Assembly (NCBI GenBank): GCA_902547925.1
Contig: CACCQD010000004.1
Coordinates: 28,902-92,901, forward strand
From: an uncultured SAR116 cluster alpha proteobacterium
GTDB lineage: Bacteria > Pseudomonadota > Alphaproteobacteria > Puniceispirillales > Puniceispirillaceae
Direction: 5' to 3'
DNA: 64,000 bases
Shown here piece by piece: positions 41,900-52,414 of the stretch (position 1 is the first letter of the stretch; each line of letters opens with the position of its first letter). The translations under genes and the position numbers were made by a program. The notes under the pieces are model-generated. The model was given only the letters and a program-made list of their open reading frames with translations, did not search any database and had not been told where the DNA came from.

Positions 41900-43729
41900 T
41901 CAGACTGGATGACCTGCTGCGGCACTATTGATTATCCTAGTTAGACTGGCTTTTAAATAGCGCTTAGCCGACAGAGCTTCATAAATGTTGTCCCAGCCGC
42001 GCCTTTCCCATTCGAGCCTGGCCTCCATATCATTCTCACAGAATTCCATGCATTTTATCAGTCGCGGCGCTCCTTCATCAACGAAACGCCCTCCTGCTGA
42101 CGATCCATCGATTAAGAAGATCAACGCGGCAAGGGTCTTTGCTTGGGGATGTATAAAGCAAGAAGTGAAAGGCCAACAATGATTTCTAATCCATTCAAAA
42201 CCCAATGGGTGTAATGCTGCGTAGCGACTAAACAACATCAACCGCTCGATATTTCCGATAGCCTTAGCCGGTGCCGCGTGAGCAATTGACCTACCCGCGA
42301 AGGTCATCTTGTCATGTCGCATAATAAGTCCGTTTGCATGAAGGTGAGATAGATATGCGTTACCCTCAATGGCTGAAAGAGTGTAGGCTTGGTCCTCGGC
42401 ACGGTTGATGAAACTAGGCGTGAATGGCCGCCATCGCTGTAATGCTTGGGCGGTGATGCCGGTAGTCCCCCCAGTCACGTGAATGCGCTGAGAGCCCGCT
42501 TCAGTTTGCATAATTTCAGCTTCGGTAGAGACTGCTTGGGGCCACTGAGGGCAAAACAGACGATTAGAGGAAAAGTTCTTCTTAGTCTGAACGCCACTGG
42601 GTCTTTGAACGTCGGGCACAAATAATCCAGCCGTGGCATCGTCCTCATTAACAAGTCCTCCGGCCAGCATCCCGAGATCGACCTCCCGTCCGGCATGATC
42701 TCTGGCGCTTCCACCCCAGGCCGGGTTCATCAAATGTTGTAGAGCTGTTTGACCGGTGAAGGACAATAGCGCCGTTTGATCAAAAACCTGGTCAAGGTCA
42801 ATTTTAAATGTAAATGAAGCATTTGGGTTTACTGTCTGTTGCCAGAACAGGAGAAGAGTTTTTAGAAAACTGTAATGGCGGCCATAGGCGCCGTTTACTC
42901 CAAACACACTGCTGGCTGCGTCATCTCCTGGACAAAGTGTTTCGATCATTTGCTGGCAGCGGATCTCGTCAAACAAAAATACCCGCAGATGCTTTAACTC
43001 AAGATGCGTGCAAATAAGATTTCGCACATAATCTGCAGCAAGCTGTTCCATCCCCTCGTGGGTAACAGAGACCGAAATAGCGAGGTCGATCTTTGCATTA
43101 GGACGGAGTTGCCCCATGTCGCACTCTAGTTTTAAGGCCTCATCTAGCTTTTTTAAGCCATATAGGATTTCGTTTTCTTCTGGAGATGCATCCAGTGGGA
43201 CAGGGTGGTCATACCAAAAACTTTGCGGCATCGCTAATATCCGCCGCGCCTCTCGGCGAAGGTCAACTGGTATTAGAGAAGAATCGGGGTCCAGTGGTGG
43301 TGAGACAAGTGCGTTCGTGGTCAGCAAAAGTTCGGTTGAGGGATCAGTGAGGCCGCAAGCTGGATAACTAATCGCAAAAAGGCGTCGTCGTTCCTTGAGA
43401 GTGTCTGTCATGCCTTTTGGGTCTTTACTGGCAGCCTCTGCTGTCGGGCAAAAGATAGACCAAAGGTTAGAGATGTCTTCAAAATCTGTTCTTGCTTCCT
43501 CCAAAGCAGCTCTCAGAAATTTGTTGGTCGTTGTCGTAGCATTGCGGTCAACAAGTAAACCTGCATCTTTATGGTCCGGGTGGTTTGAAAACTCTTTGAG
43601 AAGCCAAGCACGACAAAGACGAGATTGTTTGTCTGGCGCAGAGGCAAAGGAAAGGCTGTCTTTATCGTTGGGGCCGATTAGATGTGTAGTTAGATAACTC
43701 AGTATTGAGGATTTGGAAGACATTGTCAT
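41900..43729 (-). CDS. Uncharacterised 609-aa protein divergent from lacI-like gene
   Basis: Long ORF; contains FTFKIDLDQVFDQTALLSFTGQTALQHLMNPAWGG; possibly glycosyltransferase-like, family not identified. Confidence 0.7.
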   Translation of the reverse strand: MTMSSKSSILSYLTTHLIGPNDKDSLSFASAPDKQSRLCRAWLLKEFSNHPDHKDAGLLVDRNATTTTNKFLRAALEEARTDFEDISNLWSIFCPTAEAASKDPKGMTDTLKERRRLFAISYPACGLTDPSTELLLTTNALVSPPLDPDSSLIPVDLRREARRILAMPQSFWYDHPVPLDASPEENEILYGLKKLDEALKLECDMGQLRPNAKIDLAISVSVTHEGMEQLAADYVRNLICTHLELKHLRVFLFDEIRCQQMIETLCPGDDAASSVFGVNGAYGRHYSFLKTLLLFWQQTVNPNASFTFKIDLDQVFDQTALLSFTGQTALQHLMNPAWGGSARDHAGREVDLGMLAGGLVNEDDATAGLFVPDVQRPSGVQTKKNFSSNRLFCPQWPQAVSTEAEIMQTEAGSQRIHVTGGTTGITAQALQRWRPFTPSFINRAEDQAYTLSAIEGNAYLSHLHANGLIMRHDKMTFAGRSIAHAAPAKAIGNIERLMLFSRYAALHPLGFEWIRNHCWPFTSCFIHPQAKTLAALIFLIDGSSAGGRFVDEGAPRLIKCMEFCENDMEARLEWERRGWDNIYEALSAKRYLKASLTRIINSAAAGHPV

Positions 43730-43849: not shown

Positions 43850-44932
43850 ATGAAGCTAAATACAATTGCGCAGCGGTTAAAACTGTCAGAAAGCACAGTA
43901 TCGCGCGCACTGAATGATTATCAGGATATTTCTGCAGATACCAAGGCGCTGGTACGTAAGGCAGCCAATGAACTTGGCTATGTTCCAAATCCCCACGCAC
44001 GTCGCCTAGCATCCGGTAAGGCTGACAATATAGCTTACGTCATGCCGCGCTCAGATGGCCAGGTCAATGCGTCTTTTCTGGTTGAATTGATGACTGGAAT
44101 GGCTGAAGCGCTCAACGCCAAGGGATGGGATTTGTCGGTGCTAGTGCCGAATAGTGCTGAAGAAGAAATCGATATATTTCAAAAAATTTCACGTACCCGT
44201 CATGTCAGCGGGCTGATCATTTCACGTACCCTTACACGTGATGTTCGTTTTAAAATTTTGCATGAACTAAAAATTCCGTTCGTATCGCACGGACGGTCAA
44301 TGGACAGTGGCGCCGCCGCCTGGATCGATGTAGACAATGTAACTGCTTTTTACGATATGACGGCACATTTTATTGCGTTGGGGCATCGCCGTATTGCTCA
44401 TATCGGTGGAGAAGAAAGCTATAATTTTTCTGCGCAGCGAGCGCGCGGCTGGCGTGATGCACTTGTGCAAGCTGGTATTATGGTTGATCCAGATTTCCAT
44501 CAGAAAGCCGAACTCAGCTATGCCGGCGGTGCTCTTGCCATGCAAAGTCTTCTTATGCTGGCTGAGCCACCAACTGCCGTGTGTTGTATTTCAGACCATG
44601 TTGCTATCGGCGCAATGCGCGCCCTTCGTGACTGCGGTTTGGTGCCGGGCCGTGAAGTGTCTGTCATCGGATATGACGGGCTTGAGATCGGGAACTGGCT
44701 CGAGCCTCCTCTATCAACAATGAAACAGCCCCTTCAATCTGCAGGACAGCAACTAGTCGAAATTGTCATTAATATGGTCGAGCATGGGGACTCCCCAAAG
44801 GATCATCAAAAACTCTACCGCGCAACGTTGGTGCGGCGAGGAACGGACAACCCCCCCGTGCCGGGTTGGCCGAAACGTCTGTCGGGATATCGACAGGATA
44901 AAAACACAACATTTGTAGGAGAGGAAAAATGA
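43850..44932 (+). CDS. LacI-family transcriptional regulator
   Basis: MKLNTIAQRLKLSESTVSRALNDYQDISADTKALVRKAANELGYVPNPHARRL HTH. Confidence 0.95.
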   Translation: MKLNTIAQRLKLSESTVSRALNDYQDISADTKALVRKAANELGYVPNPHARRLASGKADNIAYVMPRSDGQVNASFLVELMTGMAEALNAKGWDLSVLVPNSAEEEIDIFQKISRTRHVSGLIISRTLTRDVRFKILHELKIPFVSHGRSMDSGAAAWIDVDNVTAFYDMTAHFIALGHRRIAHIGGEESYNFSAQRARGWRDALVQAGIMVDPDFHQKAELSYAGGALAMQSLLMLAEPPTAVCCISDHVAIGAMRALRDCGLVPGREVSVIGYDGLEIGNWLEPPLSTMKQPLQSAGQQLVEIVINMVEHGDSPKDHQKLYRATLVRRGTDNPPVPGWPKRLSGYRQDKNTTFVGEEK

Positions 44933-46272
44933 AAAAGTTCCATTTGGCTGCTGCTTCTGCAATCGTCACTGTGATGATTGCCGGCGTGGCACATGCCGAC
45001 ACAATTAGGTTCTGGACTACGGAAAACCAGCCAGAACGCCTTGCTAAACAGGAGGCCATGGCTGCTGACTTCAACAAAAGGACAGGCCACAAGGTTGAAG
45101 TGATACCAGTCGAGGAAAAGGATCTGGGCACGCGGACAACGGCTGCATTCGCCGCCGGTGATCTTCCTGACGTAATTTACCATACAATACAGTATGTTTT
45201 GCCATGGGCAGAGGCGGGTATTTTAGATGTAGAGGCCAATGATGATGTGGTTGACGCATTGCAGAAAAATACGTTTGCACCTGGTGCCATTGCCATGGCC
45301 CAATTTGATGGGATGACTGCTGCTGTTCCTGTAGATGGATGGACACAGATGGTTGTTTACCGCAAGGATCTATTCGATTCTGCAGGTCTTGCTGCGCCGA
45401 CAAGCTATGCTGCAATCGAGGCTGCTGTCGATGCGCTTCACAATCCACCGTCCATGTATGGTTTTGTGGCGCCTAACAAGGTTGATGAGAACTTTATGAG
45501 CCAGGTTTTGGAACATGTGTTCCTTGCTAATGGTGTATCACCGGTTAGTGCTGATGGATTTGCACCGTTTGATGTGGCTTCCACCACAGAAGTTCTGGAT
45601 TTTTACAAGAAAATTTCCAAAGCGTCTCCTCCTGGTGAGCTGTTTTGGAAACAGTCACGCGAAATGTATTTCGCTGGTAAGGCCGCTATGATCATCTGGT
45701 CACCATTCATCCTCGACGAGCTTGCTGGCTTGCGGGACTCTGCTCCGCCAACCATCAATGATGATCCAACCTCAGGCGAGCTTGCTTCGAAGACTGGGAT
45801 AGTGACAACCTTTGGCGGTCCGTCGAAGGCGTCTGGTGCCGCATGGGCTGATATTCGATACTTTGGGATCACCAGCGACGCAAACACTGATGTCGCAGCT
45901 GAGTTCGTGACCTATTCCATGAAAGATGGTTACACCAGCACTTTGTCAATTGCACCAGAGGGCAAGTTTCCCGTGCGCCGTGGTGAGCCTACCGATACAG
46001 CCCGCTATGTCAAAGCCTGGTCAAAGCTTCCAGTCGGTGTTGATCGGAAGGCACCACTGTCTGAGCTTTATGCCCCGGCAATGATAAATCGCATTGTTGG
46101 TGGCCTGGAAACTGCAGACCGTTGGGGGGTCAAGGAGGGTCAGCTCTCACTTGCTTCTAAGATCATTAATTCACAGGCAATAAATAGAATTGTTCGCCAG
46201 TATATCGACGACGAGATTAGCTCGTCCGATGCTGTAGCCAAGATGAACGCCGAACTAGCATCCATCGAGTAG
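44929..46272 (+). CDS. Sugar ABC transporter substrate-binding protein (family 1)
   Basis: Signal peptide; DTIRFWTTENQPERLAKQEAMAADFNKRTGHKVEVIPV. Confidence 0.9.
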   Translation: MKKFHLAAASAIVTVMIAGVAHADTIRFWTTENQPERLAKQEAMAADFNKRTGHKVEVIPVEEKDLGTRTTAAFAAGDLPDVIYHTIQYVLPWAEAGILDVEANDDVVDALQKNTFAPGAIAMAQFDGMTAAVPVDGWTQMVVYRKDLFDSAGLAAPTSYAAIEAAVDALHNPPSMYGFVAPNKVDENFMSQVLEHVFLANGVSPVSADGFAPFDVASTTEVLDFYKKISKASPPGELFWKQSREMYFAGKAAMIIWSPFILDELAGLRDSAPPTINDDPTSGELASKTGIVTTFGGPSKASGAAWADIRYFGITSDANTDVAAEFVTYSMKDGYTSTLSIAPEGKFPVRRGEPTDTARYVKAWSKLPVGVDRKAPLSELYAPAMINRIVGGLETADRWGVKEGQLSLASKIINSQAINRIVRQYIDDEISSSDAVAKMNAELASIE

Positions 46273-46342: not shown

Positions 46343-47635
46343 ATGTCACGTACCTCAAGATCAGACTTCAACGGAGAGTTGGCCCGTCGCGAGAAACGGT
46401 TGGCTTATTTGTTATTATTACCGACATTTATTCTGATTCTGGCAATCGTGCTGCTGCCATTGTTAACAAATTTTTGGATTTCCTTCAAACCTGTCAAGTT
46501 GGGCGATCTGCGCCCGCCATCCTTAATTATCAAAGAAGCGCTGCGTGGGGCGATTGCTTCGCCTGGTGATATTTTCAAGATCGAATATCGGTTTCGCAAT
46601 TCCTCTGTAAAGTATCCCCTCACTGAGGCGTCATTACGTGACACACTACCTGACGGATTATTAATTACCACACTTGACCCGGCATGTGAAATCATATCCG
46701 AAGAGGGGGGGCGGACCATTTTCTGCACGCTCGGTGATCTGGATGCAAAGGCACGTGGTAAGCTCGTCGTCGAGGCTGTGCTTGAAGAACCGATGCTGGT
46801 CAACAAGGATATTTTAAAAGCCAGCAAGCCGGAGACGCTCTTCATAGCACAGAATGTACTGACATCTTTTGAATTCACCCTAGAGAACTTTAAGAAAGTA
46901 TTTTCTGCCGCAGAATTCTGGAATGTGCTGAAGACATCAATCTACTATACGGTTTTTGGCACAGCGGGGGCATTGTTGTTTGGCCTGTTTGCGGCGCAGA
47001 TAATGCTTAAAACATTTCCTGGCAGGTCGATAATCCGTGGATTGTTTCTATTTCCTTACGTCGCACCAGTTATCGCCGTCGCGTTTTCCTGGGTAGTGCT
47101 ATTCGATCCATTCTCCGGTGTAGTGAATACTATGCTGTTACAGCTTGGCGCTGCAGAGGGCCCAATCAATTTTTTTGGCCAGCGTAAAGTGGATATCAGC
47201 GTTTTTGGCCTGACAATTGAATTTCCTATCGCACTCAGTATGGTCATACTATTTGAGATATGGCGTTATTTTCCTCTGTCATTTCTGTTCATTCTGGCGC
47301 GCATGCAGTCAATACCTTCAGATATATACGAAGCAGCAGAAATGGACGGGGCCACACCGTTACAGCAATTCTGGTCATTGTCGTTGCCATTTATCGCCGG
47401 TATTTTGGCCGTGCTTTTTTTGCTACGCTTTATCTGGACCTTTAACAAGTTTGACGACATTTTCCTTTTGACAGGTGGTAATGCCGGAACACGAACCCTC
47501 ACAGTAAATGTGTATGAACAGGCGTTCGCCATTTCCAATCTGGGAGCAGGTGCGGCTGTGGCAGTGGTTATTTTTGTCTTTCTACTGATCTTCTCAGTCA
47601 TTTTTATTCGCTTCTCACCAAAGGATGCCGGCTGA
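46343..47635 (+). CDS. Sugar ABC transporter permease (MalF-like) with large periplasmic insertion
   Basis: EAAEMDGATPLQQFWSLSLPF (EAA loop); insertion YRFRNSSVKYPLTEASLRDTLPDGLLITTLDPACEIISEEGGRTIFCTLGDLDAKARGKLVVE. Confidence 0.88.
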   Translation: MSRTSRSDFNGELARREKRLAYLLLLPTFILILAIVLLPLLTNFWISFKPVKLGDLRPPSLIIKEALRGAIASPGDIFKIEYRFRNSSVKYPLTEASLRDTLPDGLLITTLDPACEIISEEGGRTIFCTLGDLDAKARGKLVVEAVLEEPMLVNKDILKASKPETLFIAQNVLTSFEFTLENFKKVFSAAEFWNVLKTSIYYTVFGTAGALLFGLFAAQIMLKTFPGRSIIRGLFLFPYVAPVIAVAFSWVVLFDPFSGVVNTMLLQLGAAEGPINFFGQRKVDISVFGLTIEFPIALSMVILFEIWRYFPLSFLFILARMQSIPSDIYEAAEMDGATPLQQFWSLSLPFIAGILAVLFLLRFIWTFNKFDDIFLLTGGNAGTRTLTVNVYEQAFAISNLGAGAAVAVVIFVFLLIFSVIFIRFSPKDAG

Positions 47636-48864
47636 TGAGGTTCTGGATGACAGGAATGTTCGCCAGTGCATTGACGGGCTTAGTCTGGGTCGGTCTGTGG
47701 CATTTGGTGTTGACTATGATGGCCATCCTTGCGACGGGTGCTGCCTTGCCTCTAGCCCTTGGCCCAGCTGCATTTTCCGGTCTTGTGGCAGGTGTGTTTG
47801 CTGCATTGCAGCGGCCGTCATTATTACGCAACCGGAGGATGACTGGCATTATCTTGATCGCATGCCTGCTGTTCAGTTTTTCACTTGGCACGCCGTTTGA
47901 TCCGGAAAGTCTTTTGGCCCCGTGGCAAAGTTTGCTGCTGCTGGTATTGGCATCGGCAGCTGGCTGGTTGAGCATTGAAAAAACAGTTGGGCCTGCCAAT
48001 GCTGGATTTATGACGCGCTACGGGACTGAAGAATTCTACCTACGTTTATTTTGGGGGTTGGGACTGATGATGTTCGTGCTGATCGTCGCCGTGCCTTTCT
48101 ATGTGATGGTGATGACCAGCCTAAAAAGTCAGCATAGCCTGATGATCAATCCGCTCGACTTCTCCATTGATTACAGTCTTGGCGTGACGAAGCTGCTAAG
48201 TTCATACATAGAACTTTTCACCGATTACGGTTTTATGACTCTGCTGGTCAATTCAGCAGTGGTATCTGTGGCGACTGTGATAATCACATTGCTGTTTTCC
48301 GTTCCGGGGGCCTATGCGGTAGCTAAATTGCGTTTTCCAGGGCGCAAGTGGCTGTCTGGTTCGGTGCTTCTGATATATCTGATTCCGGCAATTATTCTCG
48401 TGATCCCTCTATATGCCATTTTCAGCCAGCTTGGCATGCGCAATTCACTGTTTGCCTTATGTATCGTGTATCCGGCAACCACGATCCCTGTAGCGGTTTA
48501 TATGCTACGCGGATATTTTGCCGGTCTCCCATCTGATCTGGATGATGCAGGGTTAATGGATGGGCTATCACGGCTACAAATCATTACAAACATTGCGATG
48601 CCATTGTCTATGCCAGCAATTGCGTCTGTCGCGCTTTATGTCTTTATGATTGCTTGGAACGAGTTTTTGTTCGCTTTCATGTTTCTTGATGATGTGAAGC
48701 TTTTCACGCTTTCGCGAGGGATCGTATCCTTGAATTCATCTGAAGTGCCCCGCCAACATCTTATGGCAGGTGCGGTCATCGCGACAGCTCCCGTATTATT
48801 CCTTTTTCTCTGGTTTGAAAGATTCTTGGTGTCTGGTCTGACAGCAGGGAGCGTGAAAGGCTAA
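47635..48864 (+). CDS. Sugar ABC transporter permease (MalG-like) with extended N-terminus
   Basis: DDAGLMDGLSRLQIITNIAMPLSMPA (EAA loop); ~130 aa extra hydrophobic N-terminus. Confidence 0.88.
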   Translation: MRFWMTGMFASALTGLVWVGLWHLVLTMMAILATGAALPLALGPAAFSGLVAGVFAALQRPSLLRNRRMTGIILIACLLFSFSLGTPFDPESLLAPWQSLLLLVLASAAGWLSIEKTVGPANAGFMTRYGTEEFYLRLFWGLGLMMFVLIVAVPFYVMVMTSLKSQHSLMINPLDFSIDYSLGVTKLLSSYIELFTDYGFMTLLVNSAVVSVATVIITLLFSVPGAYAVAKLRFPGRKWLSGSVLLIYLIPAIILVIPLYAIFSQLGMRNSLFALCIVYPATTIPVAVYMLRGYFAGLPSDLDDAGLMDGLSRLQIITNIAMPLSMPAIASVALYVFMIAWNEFLFAFMFLDDVKLFTLSRGIVSLNSSEVPRQHLMAGAVIATAPVLFLFLWFERFLVSGLTAGSVKG

Positions 48865-48868
48865 CTTG

Positions 48869-50158
48869 ATGGCACAACGAATCCAGGAAGCAATTAACAT
48901 TATTAAGATGAATGACCGAGGAGGCTATACGGTTCCCACAAATCAACTTTATCCATACCAGTGGAATTGGGACTCCGCTTTCACTGCGCTAGGTATATGG
49001 CATTTCAATAAATGGCGCGCGTGGCTCGAAATCATGTCCTTGCTCGATGGCCAGTGGCAGGACGGCATGATTCCGCATATCGTTTTCCGTCACAATGACC
49101 CAGATTATTTTCCGGGGCCCGCGATTTGGGATACCAATACTGAACCGCCAACGAGCGGACATTCACAGCCACCAGTATTGGCTAGCATTATCTGGCGGTT
49201 TGTTCAGATGGGAACTGATTATGATAAACGAAAAGCTATTGAAGTTTTCCCTAAACTGATGGCGTATCACCGTTGGTTCAGCAATGCCCGTGATCCAAAT
49301 AACCTGGGAATAATTAGTATCATCCATCCCTGGGAGTCAGGCCGTGACAATTGTCCTGACTGGGACATTGGTATGCAAAACATCGTGATTTCGGGTAATC
49401 TAGAGCGTTATACTAGGCGTGACACCTCTCATGTGGACAGTAACCAGCGACCTACGCAAGACCAATATGACCGTTTCATCACAATCGTTAATTTTGGCCG
49501 TGAATGTGATTGGGACAGCCAAACTATCTATGCCAATGGTCCGTTCCTTATGGCAGACCCAGGGGTACAGTTTATTTTCCTTCGCGCCAGCCGCGACTTG
49601 TTGGCAATGGCGCATCACCTAGAAATGGATTTGGCCATTGATGAAATCAAAGGCTGGGTTGAACAGGTTGAAGCTGGTTCAGACTTTTTGTGGAATGACG
49701 TGGTTGGTGGTTATTGTGCACGCGATTTGCGAACCGGTCAGTTCAGCGATGCAATCACTAACGCTTCAATGCTGAGCTTTTTTGCTGATGTTGGTTCACC
49801 TGAACAGCGAAAGAGCATGGAGGCGCATTGTCGGCGCATTCTTGGTGCTAGTGCCTTTGGCATGCCTAGTTGGGACCCAGATCATCAAGCGTTTGAGTCA
49901 CAACGCTATTGGCGCGGTCCTGTCTGGGCTATCATGAACCACATGGTTATCAGCGGACTTGAGGACGCTGGACTTGTCGATCTGGCGGCGCGCGTGCGCA
50001 ATGACACAATCAACCTGATTAATGAGCACGGTATGGCGGAATATTTTGATCCACGTGATGGTGATGGTCTTGGGGGGATGGATTTTTCATGGACCGCGGC
50101 CGTTTATCTCGATCTTTACAAAACCGAAGTTGCGGCATCAATTGTAGCGGCTGGGTGA
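48869..50158 (+). CDS. GH63-like glycoside hydrolase (mannosyl-/glucosylglycerate hydrolase-like)
   Basis: YQWNWDSAFTALGIWHFN, DGMIPHIVF, HPWESGRDNCPDWD, RYWRGPVWAIMNHMV, (alpha/alpha)6-type motifs. Confidence 0.75.
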   Translation: MAQRIQEAINIIKMNDRGGYTVPTNQLYPYQWNWDSAFTALGIWHFNKWRAWLEIMSLLDGQWQDGMIPHIVFRHNDPDYFPGPAIWDTNTEPPTSGHSQPPVLASIIWRFVQMGTDYDKRKAIEVFPKLMAYHRWFSNARDPNNLGIISIIHPWESGRDNCPDWDIGMQNIVISGNLERYTRRDTSHVDSNQRPTQDQYDRFITIVNFGRECDWDSQTIYANGPFLMADPGVQFIFLRASRDLLAMAHHLEMDLAIDEIKGWVEQVEAGSDFLWNDVVGGYCARDLRTGQFSDAITNASMLSFFADVGSPEQRKSMEAHCRRILGASAFGMPSWDPDHQAFESQRYWRGPVWAIMNHMVISGLEDAGLVDLAARVRNDTINLINEHGMAEYFDPRDGDGLGGMDFSWTAAVYLDLYKTEVAASIVAAG

Positions 50159-50168
50159 GGGCAGTGAG

Positions 50169-51263
50169 ATGGCATCGATACAGCTGAACGCTGTTGAAAA
50201 ATGGTTTGGTGATTTGCAGGTCATCAAGGGTATTGATCTAGCCATTAAAGATGGTGAGTTTGTGGTCTTTGTTGGACCATCAGGCTGCGGCAAGTCAACT
50301 TTGCTGCGTATCATTGCTGGACTTGAAGACGCTAGCGAGGGGTCAGTGATCATCAATGACAATGATGTAACAGGCAATTTACCTTCTGAGCGCGGACTAG
50401 CCATGGTGTTTCAATCTTATGCGCTCTACCCCCACATGGACGTGGCTGAAAACATTGGCTTCGCGTTAAAAACCGCTGGCATGCCTCGGACTGAAATCAA
50501 GAAACGAGTTGACGAGGTGGCGGGGGTTTTGAAGCTGGAAAGTCTGCTGGGCCGCTTGCCAAAACAACTGTCAGGTGGTCAGCGTCAGCGTGTTGCAATC
50601 GGCCGCGCAATTGTAAGGGAACCAGTTGGCTTTCTGTTTGATGAACCGCTATCTAATTTGGATGCTGCTTTGCGGGTGAATATGCGCCTCGAAATTTCAC
50701 GCCTTCATGCTCATCTTGGAATCACCACTATTTACGTGACCCACGACCAGATTGAAGCAATGACTCTTGCTGATAGAATTATTGTGCTAGACGAAGGGCG
50801 AATCATTCAGGCTGGCAGCCCACGCGAACTCTATAACAACCCTAATAGCCGGTTTGTTGCCGAATTTATCGGTAGTCCAAAAATGAACTTACTGCCTTGC
50901 ATGGAAAAGTCGGGCCAGATCGTCTTTTCTGGTTATGCTAAAAATATAGGTCGTAAAAAGGCCGCCAACGAGAGGTATTTGACAGCTCCGTCTAGCGCGA
51001 TAGCTAGCCTCGGTATTAGGCCTGAAAACATTGCGCTATGTGGTGAGGATGCAGGACATATCAGCGGCACCGTTACAGTGTGCGAATATCTTGGATCAGA
51101 ACAATTCGCCTATATCGATTGCGGTTTTGACAATATGGTCACTGCTCGTGTCAACCCGGATGCTGAGTTGGAGATCGGCAGTATTACAGGCCTGTCTTTT
51201 GATAATGAAAAACTTTATATTTTTGATGGTGATGGTGCCCGTCTAAGTAACTTTGCCAGATAA
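50169..51263 (+). CDS. Sugar ABC transporter ATPase (MalK/UgpC-like)
   Basis: VGPSGCGKSTLLRIIAG, LSGGQRQRVAIGRAIVREP, FDEPLSNLDAALR; C-terminal TOBE-like region. Confidence 0.95.
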   Translation: MASIQLNAVEKWFGDLQVIKGIDLAIKDGEFVVFVGPSGCGKSTLLRIIAGLEDASEGSVIINDNDVTGNLPSERGLAMVFQSYALYPHMDVAENIGFALKTAGMPRTEIKKRVDEVAGVLKLESLLGRLPKQLSGGQRQRVAIGRAIVREPVGFLFDEPLSNLDAALRVNMRLEISRLHAHLGITTIYVTHDQIEAMTLADRIIVLDEGRIIQAGSPRELYNNPNSRFVAEFIGSPKMNLLPCMEKSGQIVFSGYAKNIGRKKAANERYLTAPSSAIASLGIRPENIALCGEDAGHISGTVTVCEYLGSEQFAYIDCGFDNMVTARVNPDAELEIGSITGLSFDNEKLYIFDGDGARLSNFAR

Positions 51264-51628: not shown

Positions 51629-52414
51629 ATGACACAGATGTGGATATTTCAGGAATTGGGCCGAGACTTGTGTCGGGACTTCAGATTGAAGTTCAGATTG
51701 GGCGCGGTAGCGCTTATGCTGTCGGGGGTGCCGCTTGCCAGCGCAGATGAGCTTGCCAGCGCAAATCAACTCACCATTGCAGATCAGCCGACCATCGCCG
51801 GTGTTGGGGGCGAGATTGAGATGGGGAGCGCCATGATTGCGGCACCCGCCAGTAAAGTGGTGTCTGATGGTTTTAATGCTGATATCCTGCCAGCCAATAT
51901 CCCCGCCGGGAACGCAACGCCGCTTGCCGCAGAGCTGGCGTCCATCAACCAGCCAAATCTGATCGCCCGACAGACGCGCGTGCAATTCTTCAGACGGATG
52001 TTTGCCAAGCCTGCTGTATATCTGATCGGTGATCAGGGCCTGACAAATGGTGAGGTGACAGCTGCTAATGTATCTGGGCTGGATATGGCTGGGCTGGAGA
52101 CGTTGGGGATGGATGTTGGCACTGCGCCCACATCCTTCAGCGTGCAAAAGGCGGCGATAGACTCGCTACAGAATAAATTGGCCCGGCGGAAGGCACCCAA
52201 TCCGCTGATGCCGCTTGGCAGTGTGGCGACCGCCTTTCATCTGATCAGCAATGGCGTTGCCAAACTGATGATTGGCAAGCTGGGCGCAGGGCATCTGCCG
52301 ATCTATGGCGATAATGGTGAGGTGATCGGCACACGCCATGCGACAACCGGCCAATTGAGCGCTGGACGCGACAGGCCGCAGGATCAGGGGCAGGTCTGGA
52401 ACAATCAGGGCTGA
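51629..52414 (+). CDS. Hypothetical protein with hydrophobic N-terminal segment
   Basis: 261 aa; LGAVALMLSGVPLASADE segment followed by low-complexity repeats. Confidence 0.5.
   Translation: MTQMWIFQELGRDLCRDFRLKFRLGAVALMLSGVPLASADELASANQLTIADQPTIAGVGGEIEMGSAMIAAPASKVVSDGFNADILPANIPAGNATPLAAELASINQPNLIARQTRVQFFRRMFAKPAVYLIGDQGLTNGEVTAANVSGLDMAGLETLGMDVGTAPTSFSVQKAAIDSLQNKLARRKAPNPLMPLGSVATAFHLISNGVAKLMIGKLGAGHLPIYGDNGEVIGTRHATTGQLSAGRDRPQDQGQVWNNQG

Follow-up and report, generated by a model that had tools for sequence, protein, structure and literature searches.

The window analysed here is a 64,000-nucleotide stretch of DNA from an uncultured alphaproteobacterium of the SAR116 cluster, and it contains an operon in which the genes for a LacI-family regulator, a solute-binding protein (SBP), permease 1, permease 2, a hydrolase, and an ATPase follow one another in this order. 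The two permeases with an EAA loop (EAAEMDGATPLQQF in permease 1), the SBP, and the MalK-type ATPase with TOBE mark the encoded system as a CUT1-type importer. The open reading frame (ORF) at 46343–47635 is an intact permease, in which an extra stretch of sequence follows the first transmembrane segment (TM1). The genes and the features discussed below are as follows (position in the window, strand, description, and supporting evidence):

43850..44932, + strand: LacI-family regulator (PF00356/PF13377)
44929..46272, + strand: SBP (SBP_bac_8, E 1e-18)
46343..47635, + strand: permease 1 (MalF/UgpA/SugA-type, CUT1), insert-bearing, 430 aa (PF00528, E 7e-15; SugA, 7cad_A, E 5e-28)
46409..46480, + strand: TM1 of permease 1, aa 23–46, about aa 17–51 (hydropathy; AlphaFold2 helix 13–46)
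46505..46867, + strand: inserted DUF11-type, predicted Ig-like domain in the first periplasmic loop, aa 55–175 (profile, conservation, AlphaFold2)
46556..46792, + strand: part of the insert aligned to the DUF11 profile, aa 72–150, GD...YRxRNSS...DTLPxGL...C...C.LG.L (hhalign 96.9%, E 1.4e-10, single comparison; TIGR01451, E 0.014, below cut-off)
46685..46687, + strand: Cys115, first of the invariant Cys pair (72/72 inserts)
46724..46726, + strand: Cys128, second of the invariant Cys pair (72/72 inserts)
46973..47608, + strand: core permease domain BPD_transp_1, aa 211–422 (PF00528, E 7e-15)
47635..48864, + strand: permease 2, MalG-type (PF00528, E 2e-17; MalG model, E 8e-32 over aa 142–409)
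47635..48030, + strand: N-terminal hydrophobic extension of permease 2, ~132 aa, 3–4 predicted TM segments (80/80 insert-bearing operons measured)
48866..50158, + strand: MGH1-like glycoside hydrolase, likely a glycosylglycerate hydrolase (PF22422, E 3e-107)
50169..51263, + strand: ATPase, MalK/UgpC type (NF008653, 450.6 bits, above the cut-off of 432)

Conservation of the operon and its likely substrate

Across 84,980 species genomes, 574 loci came up, of which the best 80 were kept. Permease 1 homologues in these best 80 of 574 loci are 57–91% identical to permease 1, and their hosts are SAR116, other marine Alphaproteobacteria, and a few Gammaproteobacteria (Leucothrix, Granulosicoccaceae), together with one bin labelled betaproteobacterial. 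In the same 80 loci, permease 1 is linked to the SBP in 79, to permease 2 in 78, to the ATPase in 76, to the hydrolase in 72, and to a similar LacI-family gene in 53, with some contigs ending early.

The best solved relatives of the hydrolase are TTHA0978 (E 1e-104) and mycobacterial GgH (E 2e-58). The catalytic and substrate-contacting residues of glucosylglycerate hydrolase have been listed, and the glycerate contacts include Y36, W40, Y88, R216, and Y375 (PMC6608630). In an alignment inspected by eye, the MGH1-like domain of the window hydrolase retains the catalytic Asp/Glu and the glycerate-contacting residues, with Y36, W40, W42, D43, Y88, Q115, D182, R216, Y222, Y375, W376, and E419 all identical. 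The enzyme scores 321 bits against the NCBIfam glucosylglycerate-hydrolase equivalog model, below its cut-off of 550, and the substrate is therefore a guess at the family level; on these sequence grounds the importer likely takes up glucosylglycerate or mannosylglycerate.

Operons with an insert-bearing permease and no detectable MGH1-like hydrolase were also observed (L025, L026, L028, L035, L071, and L132), and in these either the substrate or the way in which it is subsequently processed may be different. The operon of the window is adjoined by a gene for a 609-aa protein (41900–43729, − strand) that has no Pfam, NCBIfam, or PDB match; it is kept beside the operon in 11 of the best 80 of 574 loci, at 46–82% identity and mainly in SAR116 and its near kin, and an acidic motif of the DLDQ type might suggest that it is a glycosyltransferase. 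Downstream of the operon, an ORF of 261 aa (51629–52414, + strand), a putative gene at most, has no Pfam match and overlaps an ORF on the opposite strand.

The inserted domain of permease 1

Hydropathy and profile searches resolve permease 1 into TM1, ~130 residues without a membrane segment, and a normal BPD_transp_1 core. A basic N-terminus (ARREKR) precedes TM1, and the loop that follows TM1 is therefore periplasmic. The closest solved relatives in a PDB search are of the SugA/MalF type, the closest permease core being that of the mycobacterial LpqY-SugABC importer (7cad, 8ja7; SugA, E 5e-28). SugA aligns to TM1 and to aa ~179–424 of permease 1, leaving the region between unmatched; unlike permease 1, it is devoid of the insert. 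The extra stretch spans aa ~49–176, and the equivalent loop in Nonomuraea (locus L130), the closest insert-less relative, has ~20 residues, so that the net insertion amounts to ~110–115 residues. An earlier note on this DNA had proposed ~130 extra residues after TM1; the insert itself is borne out, at a slightly smaller net size.

The same note had read the extra region as a DUF11/B_ant_repeat module, and at the family level this reading is supported by hmmscan, by orthologous copies scoring over the cut-off, by hhalign, and by AlphaFold2. The HMM search that the note had called for gives a divided answer, in that orthologous inserts pass and the copy in the window stays below threshold. The window copy has no Pfam match at E ≤ 0.01 in hmmscan, and the isolated insert matches TIGR01451 at E 0.014, scoring 15.4 bits where the cut-off is 24. 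Among 72 non-redundant inserts, 41 match PF01345 at E ≤ 0.01 (best E 5.9e-10) and 17 match TIGR01451 in hmmscan, and two inserts from the GTDB family of the window exceed the PF01345 cut-off of 24.6 with 39.9 and 30.7 bits; the only other family recurring among the 72 inserts is DUF7933, on the same stretch as DUF11. When 23 independent DUF11 domains were aligned and compared with the insert by hhalign, the probability was 96.9% and the E 1.4e-10 over 74 columns, i.e. most of the domain, as a single comparison and not a database search; this match pairs the signature N, D.LP.G, and LG.L..G motif of DUF11 with the insert. In the reverse direction, the insert profile leads (E 1.7e-4) to an ORF of 3202 aa from a different alphaproteobacterial genome, which itself holds a PF01345 domain over the cut-off. 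A PDB sequence search with this profile returned nothing meaningful, the best match being a coiled-coil protein at E 1.7.

By these profile comparisons the insert is related, at the family level, to DUF11, a domain whose usual place is in the surface proteins of bacteria. The insert and DUF11/B_ant_repeat (PF01345, TIGR01451) share a sequence profile, the signature N, DxLPxG, and an Ig-like sandwich, and some ordinary DUF11 domains also have a C-x(n)-C hairpin ahead of LG.L. The DUF11 domains retrieved are mostly in very long ORFs, as is typical of surface repeat proteins, whereas the insert is a single copy within a permease. A search for another DUF11 domain, as a possible donor, in the window's own genome (an assembly ~58% complete) gave none at E ≤ 0.001.

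An AlphaFold2 model of the whole permease 1 chain has a mean pLDDT of 63 with a poorly modelled core, and we therefore relied on the model of the insert only; MalF is the first structural match of the whole-chain model, aligned over its full length. The insert model (alignment of 72 sequences) has a pLDDT of 89.1 and a pTM of 0.79, with 8 strands and 2 short helices, and it is confidently predicted to be an Ig-like all-beta sandwich, neither the MalF-P2-like fold nor the disordered region that the earlier note had considered as alternatives. Its Foldseek matches are generic Ig-like sandwiches (best E 4.7e-5, TM 0.4–0.6) and include the CLIPPER domain of a fibrillar adhesin, CBM2, integrin alpha chains, and mu-homology domains, with no MalF in the 50 matches listed. 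C115 lies opposite C128 across the hairpin of strands 67–72 and 75–85 (from the strand limits, 67+80=72+75), and in this model a C115–C128 disulphide is probable in the periplasm.

Distribution and evolutionary history of the insert

The survey of homologous permeases that had been proposed, which sampled mainly Pseudomonadota and plasmids, found the insert in all of the 134 or more core homologues with at least 52% core identity. A motif recognises it in 134/134 core homologues, and 5 further homologues missed by the motif have 172–177 residues upstream of the core, like the insert-bearing copies; since it is present in all of these, the insert is not a chance occurrence. At a core identity of at least 52%, every fetched sequence has the insert length, and no loss of the insert was found in any homologue examined in this range. 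The best insert-less homologue by core identity is that of Nonomuraea (47.6%), and more distant permeases likewise have no insert. Among 101 genomes (the window's own and 100 relatives), 45 have a match at E ≤ 1e-30, and these matches cover essentially the whole protein, with the exception of 3 fragments. Matches in 399 genomes sampled across the phylum fall into two classes, viz. full-length at ≥58% and core-only at ≤38%, with a clear gap between them.

The insert is considerably more divergent than its surroundings, with a mean identity of 41% vs. 73% for the core and 71% for the SBP, which indicates that it diverges faster. All 72 non-redundant inserts nevertheless share R83, R85, P103, C115, and C128, and conservation reaches at least 95% at N86, S88, and D100.

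A tree of 51 core sequences places the insert-bearing copies on one side of a branch with support 95/78; Nonomuraea is next to them and MalF is far off. This topology is consistent with a single gain of the insert, for which the support is only moderate because the outgroup branches are long. A relative of the importer without the insert was observed on a Haladaptatus plasmid (L129), where the haloarchaeal operon has genes for a glucoamylase and for a glycogen-debranching protein as neighbours; this hints at an ancestor or cousin of the importer that handled alpha-glucosides.

The N-terminal extension of permease 2 was found in all 80 insert-bearing operons measured, with 4 predicted segments in 57 of them, 3 in 19, and 2 in 4 by a simple hydropathy rule. 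It has no family match in Pfam and evolves fast (mean identity only 26%). The same position holds 9 residues in Nonomuraea and at most 31 in Haladaptatus, both of which are also without the insert, and the deepest-branching insert-bearing copy (L200, from a small genome) has both insert and extension. The extension may belong, as a second component, to the same adaptation as the insert.

Possible function of the insert and its significance

The closest functional parallel is the P2 domain of MalF (PF14785) in the E. coli maltose transporter, which occupies the same periplasmic loop of the same (MalF-type) subunit in a CUT1 importer. MalF is described as having a large loop (PMC2246101), and its P2 domain as contacting MalE throughout the transport cycle (PMC3150292 and papers cited there). 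P2 differs from the insert in its size (~165–180 aa vs. ~115 aa) and is unrelated to it in sequence, and MalF has two extra N-terminal TM helices compared with permease 1, from which it is distant on the core tree. By analogy, the insert likely does the same kind of job, i.e. docking of the SBP. The explanation that we favour is that a CUT1-type permease 1 would have acquired one DUF11-type Ig-like domain once in its first periplasmic loop and retained it since; that the domain, on the periplasmic face and presumably stiffened by the C115–C128 disulphide, would dock or retain the SBP of the operon, as P2 does for MalE; and that the small glycoside handed over, most likely glucosylglycerate or mannosylglycerate, would be cleaved in the cytoplasm by the operon's hydrolase. 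We place the probability that the domain works like MalF P2 in docking the SBP at roughly 0.55. In its favour is the tight linkage of permease 1 to a single SBP (79 of the best 80 loci); against it, the insert diverges faster than the SBP. In mirror-tree partial correlations, the insert correlates most strongly with the cytoplasmic ATPase (0.51), with values of only 0.29 for the SBP and 0.14 for the permease 2 extension, and this test does not discriminate between contact with the SBP and contact with permease 2. A more tentative proposal is that two modules, viz. the DUF11 domain of permease 1 and the 3–4-TM extension of permease 2, were acquired at the same time and cooperate in holding the SBP on the transporter, making this a distinct importer subtype that reinvented the MalF P2 solution.

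The co-occurrence of insert and extension without exception in the measured loci, their joint absence from Nonomuraea and Haladaptatus, and the presence of both in the deepest insert-bearing copy would suit a domain that makes no contact with the SBP and instead serves assembly or stability, packing onto permease 2 from the periplasm and perhaps onto its additional N-terminal membrane segments. We regard this as unlikely, as the partial distance correlation of insert and extension is weak (0.14) and, the operon being one unit, the two add-ons could be inherited together without any contact. It is distinctly unlikely that the domain, like a carbohydrate-binding module (CBM), binds glycan, peptidoglycan, or substrate, and so enriches the substrate or fastens the importer to the envelope: the best Foldseek matches include CBM2 and other carbohydrate-binding sandwiches (E ~3e-4) and the invariant R83 and R85 could meet an anionic ligand, but TM values of 0.4–0.6 are usual among Ig-like sandwiches in general, no CBM family is matched by any of the 72 inserts, and there is no conserved exposed aromatic platform, only Y82 of the strand motif being conserved as an aromatic and aa 151 loosely so. 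More doubtful still is that a captured DUF11 domain has persisted as a neutral passenger without a specific role; its faster divergence than the core (41% vs. 73% identity) would fit this, whereas its Arg, Pro, and Cys residues are invariant despite that divergence and it was never lost in the homologues examined. The idea that the insert is a divergent P2 from an ancestor common with the maltose transporter, to which its position between equivalent TM helices and the first-ranked MalF match of the whole-chain model lend some appeal, is rejected as extremely improbable, given an hhalign probability of 0.3% (control, MalF P2 vs. DUF11, 0.1%), a match to PF14785 in 0/72 inserts when real MalF matches at 4e-62, no MalF among the 50 best folds listed, and insert-less lineages between the insert-bearing copies and MalF on the tree.

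The earlier note had also considered the architecture unusual. This holds insofar as no description of a DUF11-bearing ABC permease was found in the open-access literature, an absence that is weak evidence; it is tempered by precedents for extracytoplasmic domains in permease loops, which are few in that literature, viz. MalF P2 and Thermotogales MalG. The latter, a hydrophilic insertion in MalG1/MalG2, is a lineage-specific extra domain of a sugar ABC permease whose function is reported as not known; it sits in the MalG-type subunit, unlike the insert of the MalF-type permease 1, and the relevant passages of that source mention no link to DUF11 (PMC2246101).

As a second, unrelated domain at the position of MalF P2, the insert would be a case of convergent evolution, and the question of why some importers need a permease-borne dock becomes testable. 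A concrete function in the cell is also suggested for one DUF11 domain. Marine picocyanobacteria are producers of glucosylglycerate, and the operon described here points to a glycosylglycerate uptake route that is widespread in marine bacteria.
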